Shown: positions 3-62,163 of the stretch, piece after piece
How the letters are laid out: each line of letters starts with the position of its first letter
Numbering within the stretch: the first letter of the stretch is position 1
IMG/VR virus record: IMGVR_UViG_3300048924_000100
Span: 62,001 to 126,000 of that record
Direction: 5' to 3' (one strand)
DNA: 64,000 nucleotides
DNA from: a virus
Made by a program: the position numbers and the translations under genes
Notes under the pieces: model-generated
Told to the model about the DNA's origin: nothing
Databases searched by the model: none
The model's input: the letters and a program-made list of their open reading frames with translations, nothing else

Positions 3-3000
3 GATGAGGTCTTTGTTGAGTTCCCGGCTAAATACACCCCGGTGATTGGTAGCGGTCGTGCTGTGGCGATCAATGCTCGTCAAGTCATCCAGGGTTATCG
101 TGGGTCGCACTACAAGTACAACTGGACCAAAGACATTGGCACTGTCTACAACAAGGAGAAGGTACTGGTCGTTAAGAGCTACGGTCTTGCCGATATGCTC
201 TGGCATCCACGTGCTTCCTTGTTCATCAACTTCGAGCGGTATTACAACCACTTCAACCTGTTGATGGAAGGTGCCAACGAGGAAGCGGTTAAGGGGCGAC
301 GCAAGCAGTTCTTCCGTATTGACCTGCCGTTGCACCTGCCATCCTTTTCCGACCTGATGATCGATTATGATCACTACGTCGAAAGTTTCCGTGATGGGTT
401 GCCGCTGCCTAGCAACAAGACTGTACGGACCACCAAGCAGGAGAGTTCTTACTGGTTGATGGACTGGATGGCATTCTTGTTCGGTGACTATCAATACAGC
501 CTGCTTAACAAACTGTCCGATAAGGCGATCGAAGATTTCCACCTGATCTTCGTGTTTAACAGCCGCGCGCTCGTTATCCACCTGGGTACACTGAAAGGGT
601 GGCTGGATGCAGAACTCGATAAGAACGTAGCTATCAAGGAAGAGAAGCTGCCAAAGAGTGATCGAGAAAAACACGGTAAGCGCCTTAACGCGTCTAAGCG
701 TGTCTACCTAGCACTGCTTAACCTTACACGTGGTGGTGTCACGGAAGAGGAAGTGGTTAAAGAGGAAGAGTCTAATGAACGAGAAGGAGAAAAAGCCGAG
801 AAGGCTGAGCGTCTGGCTGCAGAAGAGAAGGGAGCTTCGAAAGGGCAAGGCAAAGCATCCGGTGGATCCGGAGAAGGAACGCTTCCTCGCAAAAATGACG
901 GTGGGCGAACTGCTAGTCATCCTGACCCTCTCCGTGATGCTTTCGGTGGCAGTCAAGAAGCTGACGACGGAGTTCCTGAAGGGACACGACAAGAGGGAGA
1001 CGGAACAGATCTTGCGAGCACTGAAGAGTGGACATCACACGTAGACGACCGACTGCTCGAACAAGAGAAGGTTGTCGCCGAAACGTCCGTCAAGAAAGAT
1101 CCGTTTCCCAAGTTTGAAAGCGGTATCGCTGCTGCTCTGGAAGAGCGTGCTCGTGAAGGCAGCCTGACAGTTGCTGAACAGCAGTTCTTCATGCGCAAGG
1201 GTACTCAGGTTTATCACATCGAAATGGAAAACGGTCAGAGTCTGGCTGAATACATGGAGATCAAGCCTGAGTCCCTGAAAGAGCTTACGAGCGACGCTAA
1301 GATCGAGGGTAACTTCCCCACGATCCTGGATCAATCGATGCTCCAGAGCCGCGCCAAGGTCTTGAAGCAGGGGTACGTGGATAAGTTCTTGCTCAAAGAC
1401 ATGGCACAGATGGCAGTGGCGATTCAGAACGCTGGTTTCGCCCTTAACGACTACAAGCATGAGGTTGTTGAAGGCGTTGAAGGTGCTTACGACGTCATCA
1501 CCATTCAGGTTCACCCGGTTGATGGCGAACAGTCGACTCACCCGATCCGTTTCCCACGGGTCAGTAACGACGATGCTTCCTTTACCGTCGATGGTGTGAA
1601 GTCTCACCTGCAACTGCAACGCATGGAGTTACCGATTCGCAAGATCGATTCGGGCACCGTGCTGTTGACCAGTCACTATGACCGCCAGTTGATGGTGACT
1701 CGTAGCAAGAAGGTGGTTGATGACTTGGGCGTGTGGCTGAAGAAGCAGATCCTGCTCCGTGCTATGGCTAATAAGGACATTACGCTGAGTCGTGGTAACG
1801 GTCGTAACCGTGACTACACAGGTCCGCGTATCTACACCATCCTGGCCAGTCGCTTTCAGTGGATCAATGTGGGCGGCTACATGCTGGACTTCCGCATCGA
1901 GAAGCTGTTGGAAGATCACCCTGAGTTCAAGAAGTTCACCAAGCCGGATATGTTCCTGGTGGGCGTCAAGGACAAGAAGCCAATCACGATCGACAGCTAC
2001 GGCAACCTCTACCTGGACGGTGTTGAGTTTAACACCTTTGAAGGGTTGATGGGGATCAACTTCAGCAAAGCACCTAACGAACATGCCGTGGTTAACATCA
2101 GCGGCTTCCTGTTCCCACTGGGTGTGGTGCTGTGCTACTACTTCGGGATTGATGAGCTGTTGAAAGTCATCAAGGCTACTACCCGGACAGTGCCTATGGG
2201 TACCCGCCCTAAACTGGCAGAAGACGAGTACGCCATTCAGTTCAACGACGAGTACCTGATCTTCAACCGTCGTGAGAAGCTCACCACCCTGATCTTTGGT
2301 GGGATGCCTAAGTTGAACAACATCAGTAACTTCAGCCGAAGTGACCTGAACAACAAAGGTATCTGGGGTCCACTGATGGGAGACCCGAAGGTTCGTCCTA
2401 CTCAGTTCCTTGAGATGAACCTGCTTTACAAAATGTTCGTCGACCCGATCACCAAGAAAGAACTGCACCGCATGGGTTACAGTGAGTCGTTCCATCACTT
2501 GCTCATCGATGCGGCTAAGTTGCTGGAAACCGACTACACCCCTCACGAGGTGGAATTGGAAGAACAGCGGATCGTCGGCTACGAACGTTTTGCGGGTCAC
2601 TTCTACAAGGTCATGGTGGGCGCACAGCGTCAGTACTTCAACAAGGGCAAGGGTCGTAAGCAGAAGCTTGAGATCAACCCTGAAGCGGCGATCATGAGCA
2701 TCCTCAAGGACACCTCGGTTAACCGAGTCGAGGAAGTAAACCCGATCCACCAACTGAAGGATCAAGAGGAACTGACCTTTGGTGGTACCGGTGGGCGTAG
2801 TGAGATCACTGTAGTTAAGCGAGCGCGTGTGCAGCTCAAGAGCTACAAGGGCAAGGTCTCTGAGGCGAACAAGGACAGCGGTAAGGTAGGCTTCGTAACC
2901 TACACCACCTCTGACCCACTGGTCCTCGACTACCGTGGCAATATCGACACCAAGAGCAAGCCGTCGCCGACTTCGCTGTATTCGGTAACGGGTAACTTGG

Positions 3001-4139
3001 CGTTTGGTATGAACAAGGATGACACCAAGCGAGGCATGTTTACCTCGACTCAGGCGTCTCAAGCTGTCAGTGCCCAAAACTACACCATGCCGATCACCCG
3101 CACAGGCTATGACAACATCATTGCTCAGCGGACCTCCGAACTCTACAGCAAGGTTGCTAAAGATGCAGGCAAGGTAACGGCAGTCGTAGAGGACCATCTG
3201 GAAATCACCTATAACGACGGGACTGTTGAAAAGTATCCGTTGGGCTTGGTTATCGGTGAAGCCAGTGGTGAGTACCATCGCCACACCCGCGTTACCGATC
3301 TGAAAGTTGGTGACAAGTTTACTAAGGGTGAGGTTCTGGGTTGGGACCAGCAGTGGTTTGCACGGGACCCTTTCTGCCCAGGTCAAGTAGTCTGGAAGAG
3401 CGGTCGTCAAGTTCGCATTGCGTTGGTAGAAGACCAAGACACCTACGAGGACTCCATTGCGGTTTCGAAAGAGATCATGGCTGAATCGATTACCCCGTTC
3501 CTCACGAAGAACTCTTTCGCGGTGGATGTGGATAAGGTTGTGACCTTTAAGGTTAAACAAGGTGACCAAATCGACTACGACGCGATTTTATGCGAAATTG
3601 AAGAGAGCCACCTAGCGGGGGCTGGAGAGGAGACCACTCAGGTTGACGAGATCAACCGCTTGGGTATCAAACAGATCCGCTCCAAGTACCACGGCGAGGT
3701 GGTGAAGATCGAGGTGACTTACAACTCACCTGTGGAAAAGATGTCTGACAGTGTGCGTAAACTGATCGCTACCTCGGATAAAGAACGCAAGCGCATGTCC
3801 TCTATTGACGGCAGTTTTCCAACAGGTAGCGTGGGTAACAACCTTAACGTTGCTAAACCTGTTTTGTCGCCAGGCAAGGTATTGTTTACTGTATACGTCG
3901 AATCCATGGATGGTTCCACCACCTCGGACAAATACGTTATCGGTAACCAGATGAAGGGTACAGTCAACGGTGTAATGAAGAAGCCGTTGATGACTCAGGA
4001 CGGTCGAGTGGTTGACGTCAAGTGTAGCTTTAAAGGCGGCTTCAACCGCATGGTACTGAGCTTACGGGACCGTCTGGGCACAAGTGAACTGGCGGTTGGA
4101 GTTACCAAACAGGCTATTGCCATTTACAGAGGTAAGTAA
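3..4139 (+). CDS. RNA polymerase beta subunit, N-terminal half (probably virion RNAP, phiKZ gp178-like); 5' partial
   Basis: The reading frame is open to the left edge of the window, so the gene starts upstream; the GTG at 42 is internal. At least 1378 codons are present. The C-terminal third resembles the bacterial beta segment running up to the conserved 'NxEDSI' region: nt 3430-3470 encodes EDQDTYEDSIAVS, like the E. coli beta YNFEDS motif. The catalytic C-terminal half is a separate gene, as in phiKZ-type split polymerases. The size fits phiKZ gp178 (virion RNAP, packaged and injected to transcribe early genes) better than the smaller non-virion gp123, but this assignment is inference. 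Nt ~730-1070 encodes a long Glu/Lys/Gly-rich, probably disordered linker that is also read in another frame (see 775-1044). The stop at 4137-4139 is 2 nt before the endolysin start. Confidence 0.8.
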   Translation, partial: DEVFVEFPAKYTPVIGSGRAVAINARQVIQGYRGSHYKYNWTKDIGTVYNKEKVLVVKSYGLADMLWHPRASLFINFERYYNHFNLLMEGANEEAVKGRRKQFFRIDLPLHLPSFSDLMIDYDHYVESFRDGLPLPSNKTVRTTKQESSYWLMDWMAFLFGDYQYSLLNKLSDKAIEDFHLIFVFNSRALVIHLGTLKGWLDAELDKNVAIKEEKLPKSDREKHGKRLNASKRVYLALLNLTRGGVTEEEVVKEEESNEREGEKAEKAERLAAEEKGASKGQGKASGGSGEGTLPRKNDGGRTASHPDPLRDAFGGSQEADDGVPEGTRQEGDGTDLASTEEWTSHVDDRLLEQEKVVAETSVKKDPFPKFESGIAAALEERAREGSLTVAEQQFFMRKGTQVYHIEMENGQSLAEYMEIKPESLKELTSDAKIEGNFPTILDQSMLQSRAKVLKQGYVDKFLLKDMAQMAVAIQNAGFALNDYKHEVVEGVEGAYDVITIQVHPVDGEQSTHPIRFPRVSNDDASFTVDGVKSHLQLQRMELPIRKIDSGTVLLTSHYDRQLMVTRSKKVVDDLGVWLKKQILLRAMANKDITLSRGNGRNRDYTGPRIYTILASRFQWINVGGYMLDFRIEKLLEDHPEFKKFTKPDMFLVGVKDKKPITIDSYGNLYLDGVEFNTFEGLMGINFSKAPNEHAVVNISGFLFPLGVVLCYYFGIDELLKVIKATTRTVPMGTRPKLAEDEYAIQFNDEYLIFNRREKLTTLIFGGMPKLNNISNFSRSDLNNKGIWGPLMGDPKVRPTQFLEMNLLYKMFVDPITKKELHRMGYSESFHHLLIDAAKLLETDYTPHEVELEEQRIVGYERFAGHFYKVMVGAQRQYFNKGKGRKQKLEINPEAAIMSILKDTSVNRVEEVNPIHQLKDQEELTFGGTGGRSEITVVKRARVQLKSYKGKVSEANKDSGKVGFVTYTTSDPLVLDYRGNIDTKSKPSPTSLYSVTGNLAFGMNKDDTKRGMFTSTQASQAVSAQNYTMPITRTGYDNIIAQRTSELYSKVAKDAGKVTAVVEDHLEITYNDGTVEKYPLGLVIGEASGEYHRHTRVTDLKVGDKFTKGEVLGWDQQWFARDPFCPGQVVWKSGRQVRIALVEDQDTYEDSIAVSKEIMAESITPFLTKNSFAVDVDKVVTFKVKQGDQIDYDAILCEIEESHLAGAGEETTQVDEINRLGIKQIRSKYHGEVVKIEVTYNSPVEKMSDSVRKLIATSDKERKRMSSIDGSFPTGSVGNNLNVAKPVLSPGKVLFTVYVESMDGSTTSDKYVIGNQMKGTVNGVMKKPLMTQDGRVVDVKCSFKGGFNRMVLSLRDRLGTSELAVGVTKQAIAIYRGK
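775..1044 (+). CDS. Candidate overprinted small membrane protein (89 aa) inside the RNAP beta gene
   Basis: This ORF lies in the +1 frame within the low-complexity linker of the beta subunit. The start ATG at 775 has a good ribosome binding site, GAGGAAGAG at about 762-770. The product has a basic N-terminus (about 40 aa, many Lys/Arg), one clear hydrophobic segment at residues 41-60 (MTVGELLVILTLSVMLSVAV) and a charged C-terminal tail of about 29 aa. That gives an N-in single-span topology of the kind seen in pinholins and inner-membrane spanins, and the endolysin gene follows 3 kb downstream. A long hydrophobic run in an alternative frame of an E/K-rich region is unusual, and the host linker looks free to tolerate overprinting. 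No function is proven, and it could still be a chance ORF. Confidence 0.5.
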   Translation: MNEKEKKPRRLSVWLQKRRELRKGKAKHPVDPEKERFLAKMTVGELLVILTLSVMLSVAVKKLTTEFLKGHDKRETEQILRALKSGHHT

Positions 4140-4141
4140 AG

Positions 4142-5068
4142 ATGAGCTTCCAGACAGTCAACGGGGTTAAAGACATTCAAGTGGTCCTCCAAGAGGGTCA
4201 GGTCTACTCCGGCGGTATTGACGGTGTCTGGGGTGCTGGTTCAGCGAATGGGGTCCTGACGCTTCTTCAGGACTACCATTTGTTTCTGAATGGGGGGCGC
4301 TCTGTGCCCCTCCCAGTTACCTCGGCTAAGGGTTTCGACGCTGCCGTTCAGGGTGTCAAGGATATTCAGAGCAACCTGAAACTGGTGGGTCTCTACACTG
4401 GTGCAGTCGACGGCATTACAGGTGCTGGTAGCCTGGGTGGTTTGCGTCAGGCATTGTTCAGCTACAGCAAGCGCAAGCAACTGCCGTTCTACGACCTGGG
4501 TTGGAGTACTCGTGTTCCTGCGGCCTTCACCATGAAGGTTCGTAACTGGTGCACCAAGCAAAACATGTTCCCGGGCGCAGCCTCTGCACTGATGGCCTGC
4601 ATGTGCTTCGAATCGGGCGGTACCTTCCGTCCTGATAAACAGAACAACGGTGGCAGTAACTACTTCGGTCTGATTCAGTTCGGTACTGCGGCAGTGGAAG
4701 ACCTGGCCAAGACGTACGGGTTGAAGATCACCCTGAACGACGTCAAGGCGATGAGTCAGCTTGACCAGCTCGACCTGGTGTTCAAGTATTTCGAGATGTG
4801 GCAGAAGCGCGGTAAGGTTTACAAACGTCTCGAGGATTTCTACCTGACGATCTTCTATCCTGCTGCGGTAGGTAAGGGTCCAGACGAAGTCCTGTTCACC
4901 AAGGATTCACCGGTGCCTATCAATGCCAAGTCTTACCTGCAAAACAGCGGGTTCGATGTGGACAAAGATGGCGACATCACCGTCGGCGAGATCTGTACTC
5001 GGCTCTACGACATGTATTACCAAGGCATGGCGGTTGCAAACCGTACCAGCAGTCCTTCTCCACTCTAA
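4142..5068 (+). CDS. Endolysin: two peptidoglycan-binding repeats plus SLT-like muralytic domain
   Basis: 308 aa. The protein has two PG_binding_1-type repeats at residues ~5-45 and ~68-108 (both contain VKDIQ and a DG[VI].GAGS stretch), then a lysozyme/transglycosylase-like domain. The catalytic Glu is probably E157 in CFESGG, followed by the GLIQF motif near 176-180. This matches the modular phiKZ gp144/EL gp188 endolysin type; two binding repeats recall OBP gp279 rather than gp144, which has one. Residues 272-283 (DVDKDGDITVGE) form a textbook 12-residue EF-hand-like calcium loop, a common add-on in phage lysozymes. No signal peptide is seen, so it should need a holin or similar for release. 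The start has GAGGTAAG upstream and follows the beta stop directly. Confidence 0.9.
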   Translation: MSFQTVNGVKDIQVVLQEGQVYSGGIDGVWGAGSANGVLTLLQDYHLFLNGGRSVPLPVTSAKGFDAAVQGVKDIQSNLKLVGLYTGAVDGITGAGSLGGLRQALFSYSKRKQLPFYDLGWSTRVPAAFTMKVRNWCTKQNMFPGAASALMACMCFESGGTFRPDKQNNGGSNYFGLIQFGTAAVEDLAKTYGLKITLNDVKAMSQLDQLDLVFKYFEMWQKRGKVYKRLEDFYLTIFYPAAVGKGPDEVLFTKDSPVPINAKSYLQNSGFDVDKDGDITVGEICTRLYDMYYQGMAVANRTSSPSPL

Positions 5069-5092: not shown

Positions 5093-5269
5093 ATGACTGA
5101 TAAAGAGCAACTCATCACCAACATTGTCACGGTAGCCAATACCGTGGAAGTGGTTAAAAAGACCCTCGCCAAAGTAGGGTTGCAATACCTGGCTCCGCTG
5201 GGCGAATCCGTCATGGACGAGAAGATCAGCAAGGCCATCGTCGCCCGTGTTAAAGGAGTATCGAAATGA
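5093..5269 (+). CDS. Small protein of unknown function (58 aa)
   Basis: ATG at 5093 is preceded by CAGGAGATC (good ribosome binding site). The stop overlaps the next start as ATGA at 5266-5269, which suggests translational coupling. The sequence is short, mostly helical in appearance and amphipathic, without cysteines or a membrane segment. No family is recognised. Support comes from the ribosome binding site, the coupling and the otherwise empty gap between endolysin and the 511-aa gene. Confidence 0.7.
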   Translation: MTDKEQLITNIVTVANTVEVVKKTLAKVGLQYLAPLGESVMDEKISKAIVARVKGVSK

Positions 5270-60169: not shown

Positions 60170-62163
60170 TGGCCTTGCAAATTAGTCTACGGGAGTTTGC
60201 CAACCTGCCTGAACACCAGGTACTGCGTTGGCGCGGTTTCCGTATGGCCGTTGAGGTCACGGACGACCACGGTGAGAAAGTAAAGAGTGACACCTATGCC
60301 ATGCTGTTGACTTGGCAAGGTATGATGATCCACCGAGCTTACAACGATGTACCGTACTCGGTGAAAGAGATCATCCCCACCGGCAAGAGCGTCGTGTATA
60401 ACAACAAGACGCTCGCCATTCCAATGAACTGGATCATGGGAGAGATTGGTCCTAACATCCACGATCCAGTGGCGTGGGATGCAATCAAGATGACCATTCA
60501 CATGTGGCAGACCAAGTTGAATAACTTGATCGTAGTCATGAGTGAGACGTCGGTCATCTCTGCCATGGCGGAGTCGGTAGACGACCTGATTGAAGATCCG
60601 GGTATCCGCGAGATCCATCGCAAGGTACTGGATAAGGAAGTCACGATCGACGAAGGTGAGGACTTGTTCTCGGACTACCTCAAGACGTCTGAGACGTTGG
60701 ATTACAACACGGTAGCTCTGTTGGCACGTACTGGTGGCGTGAGTATCAACCAGGCTTATCAGACGGCGATCATTCGAGGGGCAGTATTCGACCTCGATAA
60801 CACCATTATGCCAAACGCTGTAATGGCGCGCTACGCTGATGGTGTAACCAACTTGGCAGATGCCATTGGCGATAACCGTGGTGCAGGTAAGGCACTGAAC
60901 AGTAACGGCCGTGCACTGAAAGACTCGGAATGGTTTCACCGGAAGATTCACTTGTTCACGGCGATCATCCATTCCATCAATCACATGCACGACTGTGGCT
61001 CGCTTGACACCGTGCCTGCGCGCATTGCGTCGACTGAGATGGCCAAGAGCCTGCTCGGCAAGTATCGCGTCCTAGACGACGGTACAGTTGATCTGATCAG
61101 CGTTAGAAACGTTAAGACGATCAAAGCCGGCGATCTGGTTAACCTACGCAGTGTGGCGTTCTGTAACAGTCCTCTGGGTACTCCGTGTGGCGTTTGTTAC
61201 GGATCGATGAAGTCTGCGATCCCGTACAACCGGATGATGAAGAAAGATGCAAACGTTGGTATGTTTGCTGGCACCACGATCTGTAACCCATTGGGTCAGA
61301 AAATGTTGTCAACCAAACACTTCATCCGAAACGCTACCAGTAAGAAGTTCGTACCACACCACCGCGACAAGGAGATCATCAATTCCAACGGTGACCAGAT
61401 CTTCCTTGACAAAGATCTGTGTAAGGAGGGCACGCGACTGATTCTCCGGTCAACCATTGTGAAAGATTTGTCTGACTTGCGTTCCTTGGACATCATGGAC
61501 GAGATCGCGCTCAGCAAGTTGCCTTACTTTGGTGAAGTGACCTTCCAGTATGAGGTGGAAGACATTATGGTGGGCGGTACCACCACGCAGCAACACCCCG
61601 CACAGACCTCGGTATCTTCTCGCCGTGCCCGCTTTTCTATGGGATTTCTCCAGTATATACTGGACCATGGCTGGACCATGCAGGACAAGAAGTTCATCTC
61701 AGTGGACCTCTCCAAGTGGAACAGCAAAGACCCGATGTTCGTGTTGCCCTATGTTCGTGAGGACTTGGACGCACACCGTGCTCGGGTGGAAAACTTCCTT
61801 ACGTTCAACAAACGTAATGCGGCGTGGAAGAAACAGGTCGTTACTCCTAAAGTCTTCGGCGAAGTACTTGCGGAGTTCTGGACGTTGATCGATGCTGAAA
61901 CTAAAGGCATCAACATGATTTACGTCGAGGTCATTCTGGCCTGTGCACTGACCAAGAATCCAGCAGGGCATTCGTACAAGCTGGCAACGGGTCCTGGTGA
62001 GAAATACTTCACCAGCTTTGTAACTTGCGTGGACAACCGTGGTTCGGGAACAACGGCAATCTTTGAACGCCAGCAGAACATCCTGAACCTTCCGAAAACC
62101 TTCGCGGTTAAAGACCGTCAATCAAGTGTACTGGAATGTTTCCTCCAGCATGCGGTGTCATAA
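60169..62163 (+). CDS. RNA polymerase beta-prime subunit, C-terminal half (non-virion RNAP, phiKZ gp74-like)
   Basis: 664 aa; ATG 60169 overlaps the preceding TAA. Cys332, Cys340 and Cys343 in CNSPLGTPCGVCYGS match the second beta-prime zinc cluster (E. coli CxTDxGVCxxCYG). NVGMFAGTTICNPLGQKMLSTKHF (split here as NVGMFAG, then CNPLGQKMLSTKHF) is the 'xVGxxAxxxxGEPGTQxTxRxFH' trigger-loop region, with the Glu and first Gly changed. Together with 45902 and 57893 most of the non-virion RNAP is in this window; only the beta N-half (gp123-type) is missing, unless 3-4139 is that part. Confidence 0.88.
   Translation: MALQISLREFANLPEHQVLRWRGFRMAVEVTDDHGEKVKSDTYAMLLTWQGMMIHRAYNDVPYSVKEIIPTGKSVVYNNKTLAIPMNWIMGEIGPNIHDPVAWDAIKMTIHMWQTKLNNLIVVMSETSVISAMAESVDDLIEDPGIREIHRKVLDKEVTIDEGEDLFSDYLKTSETLDYNTVALLARTGGVSINQAYQTAIIRGAVFDLDNTIMPNAVMARYADGVTNLADAIGDNRGAGKALNSNGRALKDSEWFHRKIHLFTAIIHSINHMHDCGSLDTVPARIASTEMAKSLLGKYRVLDDGTVDLISVRNVKTIKAGDLVNLRSVAFCNSPLGTPCGVCYGSMKSAIPYNRMMKKDANVGMFAGTTICNPLGQKMLSTKHFIRNATSKKFVPHHRDKEIINSNGDQIFLDKDLCKEGTRLILRSTIVKDLSDLRSLDIMDEIALSKLPYFGEVTFQYEVEDIMVGGTTTQQHPAQTSVSSRRARFSMGFLQYILDHGWTMQDKKFISVDLSKWNSKDPMFVLPYVREDLDAHRARVENFLTFNKRNAAWKKQVVTPKVFGEVLAEFWTLIDAETKGINMIYVEVILACALTKNPAGHSYKLATGPGEKYFTSFVTCVDNRGSGTTAIFERQQNILNLPKTFAVKDRQSSVLECFLQHAVS

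Follow-up and report, generated by a model that had tools for sequence, protein, structure and literature searches.

A conserved gene for a predicted membrane protein is overprinted on the disordered beta-subunit linker of the virion RNA polymerase in a single clade of nucleus-forming jumbo phages

The window analysed here, a stretch of 64,000 bases from a virus record 214,198 bases long, belongs to an EL-like jumbo phage whose nearest named relatives are the Pseudomonas phages EL and GXNNE2 and the Erwinia phages RisingSun and Joad. The window opens within the beta gene of the virion RNA polymerase (vRNAP), which is placed among virion genes and whose ATG lies upstream, at base 61766 of the record (Table 1); its phiKZ homologue is described as a vRNAP subunit in passages of PMC10612078. 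The beta gene is intact in the window and in GXNNE2, and is split in EL, HHBS8_1, MIZ-Pa99 and FishSpeaker by an intron-like insertion located downstream of the embedded frame described below. A small gene is annotated at the place equivalent to 5093-5269 in the records examined that bear this embedded frame.

Table 1. Position of the embedded gene, its parts and its neighbours in the window.
Feature	Position	Strand	Basis or remark
Virion RNA polymerase beta gene, 3' part in window	3..4139	+	homologue of EL gp186, RisingSun gp230, phiKZ gp178
Predicted disordered beta linker, beta residues 253-340	759..1022	+	AlphaFold pLDDT about 25-32
Shine-Dalgarno-like AGGA, 8 nt upstream of ATG	763..766	+	moderate strength only
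Embedded gene, 89 aa + TAG stop	775..1044	+	translation, codon-position flip, profile homology
Basic N-terminal segment, residues 1-41, net charge +9	775..897	+	
Predicted transmembrane segment, residues 42-60	898..954	+	hydropathy, low-confidence model
LRDAF, a short motif of the beta frame (LxDLF/Y-like in relatives), read from the same bases as the transmembrane segment	930..944	+	
Charged C-terminal tail, residues 61-89, conserved RE...IL+.L pattern	955..1041	+	
Muralytic enzyme gene, homologue of the post-beta gene in EL (gp188 / EL188) and relatives	4142..5068	+	
58-aa conserved protein, phrog_17945, after the muralytic enzyme gene	5093..5269	+	

Translation of the window agreed with the original prediction of an 89-codon frame in the +1 register, lying entirely within the beta frame. 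The stretch of beta beneath it, which had been called a disordered linker, is indeed modelled with very low pLDDT, and this linker is nearly coextensive with the embedded ORF. The anticipated arrangement of a basic N-terminus, a hydrophobic helix of about 20 residues and a charged tail was also recovered, with 29 residues in the tail; residues 42-60 are the best 19-residue hydrophobic segment (Kyte-Doolittle 2.17). W14 and R18, both carried by a predicted helix (10-22), and S57 are invariant across the 19 sequences of alignment A3. Two structure models were of low confidence (mean pLDDT 65.9 and 65.8), the first placing helices at residues 10-22, 32-39 and 43-84. The ribosome binding site, which had been described as strong, proved to be moderate. 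Most Elvirus-like loci have an ATG and a Shine-Dalgarno-like site in matching positions; such a site alone carries little weight, because the E-rich codons of beta yield GGA-rich DNA.

When the codons of the window were shuffled while preserving the beta peptide, the +1 frame stayed open in 1852 of 2000 shuffles, and openness in a single sequence was therefore dropped as evidence for a gene. A search with the window protein recovered seven contigs with products 81-87% identical, and in a first set of beta homologues all those covering the linker, including those of EL and RisingSun, have an open +1 frame with a recognisably similar translation. In twelve wider records the +1 frame is likewise open and encodes a hydrophobic segment; at the beta gene of phiKZ, Ea35-70, SPN3US, CR5, SA002 and FLC8, no such frame was found. 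When 17 whole records were searched with a profile of 31 members (A2), ten proved to contain the embedded ORF. Six genomes outside the profile were matched (Kc263, N1M2, Miami, AVP1, ZPAH34 and FishSpeaker, E-values from 1.4e-18 to 1.7e-8), and the same search gave no match in D3 or in the six phages just listed. Among these 17 records only the embedded copy was seen and no free-standing one, AVP1 having in addition one weak, stop-broken match (E 0.039). With tblastn, the EL and OBP forms matched only sites under beta, or the corresponding place in an unannotated record, and the window form gave no match. The OBP query matched Kc263, AH04, N1M2, Yubaba, Sureiya, pEt-SU, SXP01 and Survivor, always under beta; the features overlying the matches in SXP01 and Survivor bear the names beta' and alpha. 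The embedded gene was annotated in none of the 16 annotated ORF-bearing records examined (D3 excluded). Searches of Pfam, PHROG, BFVD and PDB returned no match to its product, in scans with the 31-member family the best E-values (0.005-0.09) were scattered over unrelated families and were taken as chance, and fold searches with the low-confidence models found nothing.

The beta gene is found in 290 phage records. We scored 68 beta loci, chosen from all those fetched after exclusion of near-duplicates and of loci cut short in the linker, and found a homologous +1 ORF in 45 of them. A tree of beta built on 65 distinct sequences groups the 42 positives into a single clade of 43 (support 0.987), whose remaining member is D3. 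The +1 frame of D3 holds an open segment that includes a hydrophobic stretch (L046, 3079-3441) but has no profile similarity, through either strong divergence or decay; its profile score of 4.0 is below that of the best shuffle (11.1) and it was counted as negative. The distribution of the ORF is thus narrower than that of the beta gene, being confined to one clade apart from D3, and, judged from the tree, both a gain in that clade and an older gain followed by loss elsewhere would fit it.

We then compared the two frames codon by codon. For nine loci, the mean pairwise difference at beta positions 1, 2 and 3 was 0.225, 0.142 and 0.456 in the upstream flank and 0.208, 0.158 and 0.463 in the downstream flank, as against 0.381, 0.293 and 0.194 inside the ORF. 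Inside the ORF, the +1 translation was more alike than that of beta in all 36 pairs (identity 0.631 against 0.475), and in the flanks in none of the 36. The same shift toward the +1 frame appeared in all six further sets (OBP-like, Vibrio, L083, L064, L069/75/95 and broad) and was weakest in the broad, very divergent one, where +1 exceeded beta in 23 of 28 pairs. In sliding windows over three sets, the edges of the codon signal matched the proposed start and stop, and 80-codon beta windows outside the ORF gave a lowest value of 0.148, compared with -0.16 to -0.24 within it. Substitution counts over 11 close pairs gave omega-like ratios inside the ORF of 0.28 (+1) and 1.59 (beta), and in the flanks of 1.52 (+1) and 0.18 (beta); some sequences occur in two of the pairs, so that the p-values of these ratios are not independent. 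This reversal, together with the flip in codon positions, is the pattern expected when purifying selection acts on a second frame within an older gene. Because the ratios inside the ORF are the reverse of those in the flanks, the beta sequence is, on this evidence, the passenger within the ORF stretch, in line with the earlier suggestion that the embedded frame had forced the composition of the linker.

The original prediction had staked itself on the absence of stops from the +1 frame of relatives and on constraint at synonymous sites; the frame is open in 45 of 45 homologues, and the third positions of the beta frame are constrained. The beta frame also stays open, in 38 of 38 loci, when shuffles that preserve the +1 peptide, drawn under a null with uniform codon choice, leave it open in only 1 to 94 of 2000 cases (0.05-4.7%), and since it does so we read the overlap as translated in both frames. 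It could be argued that conservation of the ORF is a by-product of beta, the +1 frame being open and hydrophobic by chance and untranslated, as the many open shuffles of the window and beta-preserving shuffles scoring up to 53 bits against the profile (locus L074) would allow, yet beta is the less conserved of the two inside the ORF, the omega-like ratios point the opposite way, and in 21 of 22 loci (all but D3) the actual sequence outscores its best shuffle against the profile, so that this explanation is hardly credible and in essence refuted by the comparisons. Bases 775-1044 are thus almost certainly a genuine translated gene.

The products of the family are about 75-110 residues long with one predicted transmembrane helix, and a hydrophobic segment with a Kyte-Doolittle value of at least 1.4 is present in 38 of 38 loci; hydropathy of this kind makes the embedded product very probably a membrane protein. 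EL-like members have a basic N-terminus with the invariant W and R, a hydrophobic segment ending near the invariant S, and a charged tail with a near-invariant R, and from their charge they are probably oriented N-in/C-out. OBP-type members are without most of the N-terminal part, the codon signal beginning at an ATG just upstream of the hydrophobic segment; with their short N-terminus and positive C-tail, charge gives no clear topology. The predicted membrane effector thus stands as an overprinted gene for a membrane protein; its proposed identity as a holin or spanin finds no family match.

As to function, a holin-like role in lysis is the single most likely one, held tentatively, because a muralytic gene follows beta and because no holin is labelled in HHBS8_1 or named in the main text of four papers on such phages. 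In such a scheme, ribosomes would start internally on the beta mRNA at ATG 775, and the product, a small single-pass inner-membrane protein that is probably N-in/C-out in EL-like forms, would collect in the cytoplasmic membrane and act late, as a holin or a holin-regulating lysis protein, together with the muralytic enzyme encoded directly after beta. Our search placed the enzyme gene directly after beta in 43 of the 45 ORF-bearing loci. EL and FishSpeaker escaped it because beta is intron-split there, and both have an annotated gene at that place. According to passages of PMC3352856, EL188 and OBPgp279 degrade peptidoglycan in vitro. None of the 243 features of the EL-like HHBS8_1, which carries nuclear shell protein and PhuZ labels, is labelled holin. 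A term search of the main text of PMC13282480, PMC10299810, PMC12571901 and PMC12908238 gave no occurrence of 'holin', and none is named in passages of PMC7058600 and PMC7909554. In OBP and three relatives (L036, L051, L052 and L053) the enzyme scored only 89-95 bits against its profile; the remaining positive loci with a match reached about 350 bits or more, a gap that suggests an exchanged catalytic domain.

Several observations count against a role in lysis. PMC6034870 reports detection of the enzyme next to beta by mass spectrometry in a RisingSun lysate and, by its own account, in EL too; the enzyme may therefore be a virion protein and the cluster structural. The vRNAP subunits of phiKZ are middle gene products in the passages seen of PMC10612078, and this timing, early for a holin, argues against the lysis role, as does the topological ambiguity of the OBP type. 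In the Ea35-70 type, the enzyme gene adjoins beta without the ORF; indeed, seven loci have the enzyme without the ORF, D3, Ea35-70 and SA002 included, and the co-occurrence of ORF and enzyme is suggestive but confounded by descent. The holin option of the original prediction is therefore made plausible by the muralytic neighbour, and is weakened by the possible virion nature of the enzyme and by the family scans, in which no described holin family matched the embedded protein.

Comparison with known systems gives partial likenesses. PhiX174 E in D and MS2 L are overprinted phage membrane genes, and embedded membrane genes of phages are often lysis genes. Class III holins (T4 T-type) have a single transmembrane segment and are N-in/C-out. 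The embedded protein shares with them one predicted transmembrane segment, the probable orientation and a muralytic gene nearby, and differs by the lack of a sequence match, by a tail of about 30-60 residues and by a neighbouring enzyme that may be a virion protein; a small protein with at least one transmembrane segment, as holins are, is what hydropathy and the model's helix 43-84 predict. MS2 L-type proteins are +1-embedded, have a basic N-terminus followed by a transmembrane segment, and are defined by an LS dipeptide at the end of that segment. The embedding, the order basic N-terminus to transmembrane segment and, in EL-like members, LS dipeptides are common to both; the carriers here are dsDNA phages with a muralytic enzyme, and LS is not conserved throughout the family, the OBP type being without it and FT or FS standing in members other than the EL-like ones. 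Lambda Rz1 in Rz, an embedded lysis gene according to passages of PMC6139136, likewise encodes a short protein targeted to the membrane, in the +1 frame of a gene older than itself, and the same source states that overprinted phage membrane genes are usually missed by gene callers. Here, unlike in the Rz1 case, the overprinted gene codes for a large subunit of RNA polymerase and the overlap is a disordered linker, and the searches gave no family link.

A somewhat unlikely alternative to lysis is that the protein is made with beta and enters the virion along with the vRNA polymerase and muralytic enzyme, to insert into the host inner membrane at entry and assist either delivery of the genome or polymerase or the early infection vesicle. 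The placement of beta among virion genes and the mass spectrometry of the adjacent enzyme fit such a virion protein, as do the co-localisation of injected phiKZ vRNAP with injected DNA (in passages of PMC10612078) and excerpts of reviews describing a membrane vesicle of unknown mechanism. These reviews also have phiKZ and Goslar forming the vesicle, yet phiKZ, SPN3US and Ea35-70 have neither the ORF nor a free-standing copy; since phiKZ forms the vesicle without it, the ORF is not generally required for this (Goslar lay outside our search). A more specific version, which we consider quite improbable, would have the disordered polymerase linker, in a single nucleus-forming clade, carry a membrane gene older than the genus, whose product, packaged or co-made with the polymerase, acts in the membrane at genome delivery, anchoring the polymerase or shaping or piercing the early infection vesicle.

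Also unlikely is some other membrane effector, acting in superinfection exclusion, in modulation of membrane stress or defence, or as a cytoplasmic anchor for new vRNA polymerase. A small basic protein with a single transmembrane segment, made in step with beta, would suit many such roles, with no specific support for any one of them. Effectors of these kinds are mostly early genes, which counts against this possibility. New phiKZ vRNAP, on the other hand, is kept outside the nucleus according to passages of PMC10612078.

A spanin component, which the original prediction had also offered, is very unlikely and was rejected as a leading idea: spanin genes are often embedded in the +1 frame (PMC6139136, in part), an architecture shared with two-component spanins, but the window protein has no Cys and hence no lipobox cysteine of an o- or u-spanin, it has 41 residues before the transmembrane segment and only 29 after it where i-spanins carry a long periplasmic coiled-coil domain, and the same excerpts already list EL and OBP among predicted two-component spanin singletons, encoded elsewhere.

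Altogether, these comparisons of codons and translations show that bases 775-1044 are dual-coded with the disordered vRNAP beta linker, an arrangement passed down within a single clade of nucleus-forming jumbo phages, and that the hidden protein is preserved more strictly than the stretch of polymerase it overlaps. We found no report of this overlap in titles, abstract starts and passages, a body of text that mostly lies outside subscription journals and outside the original EL and OBP genome papers; within the same scope, the literature on holins, ribosome profiling, entry vesicles and virion proteomes of such phages does not report it either. The gene adds an unannotated, deeply conserved member to such well-sequenced phages as EL, OBP, RisingSun and Miami, and is a clean case of a cellular-type enzyme gene whose local sequence is controlled by a gene overprinted on it. 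The embedded gene also provides a concrete candidate, open to testing, for the membrane function missing from phages in which the literature searched names no holin, and mutations or knock-downs in this stretch of beta are open to misreading as polymerase effects.

Finally, the beta frame itself carries a short motif (LRDAF, ILDVF, LADLY or LVDLF) in 26 of 38 positive loci, against 1.2 expected from +1-preserving shuffles, for a pattern picked after viewing the sequences and in loci that are related. It may be a docking motif. Of 23 loci without a profile-positive ORF, a single one, D3, has it.
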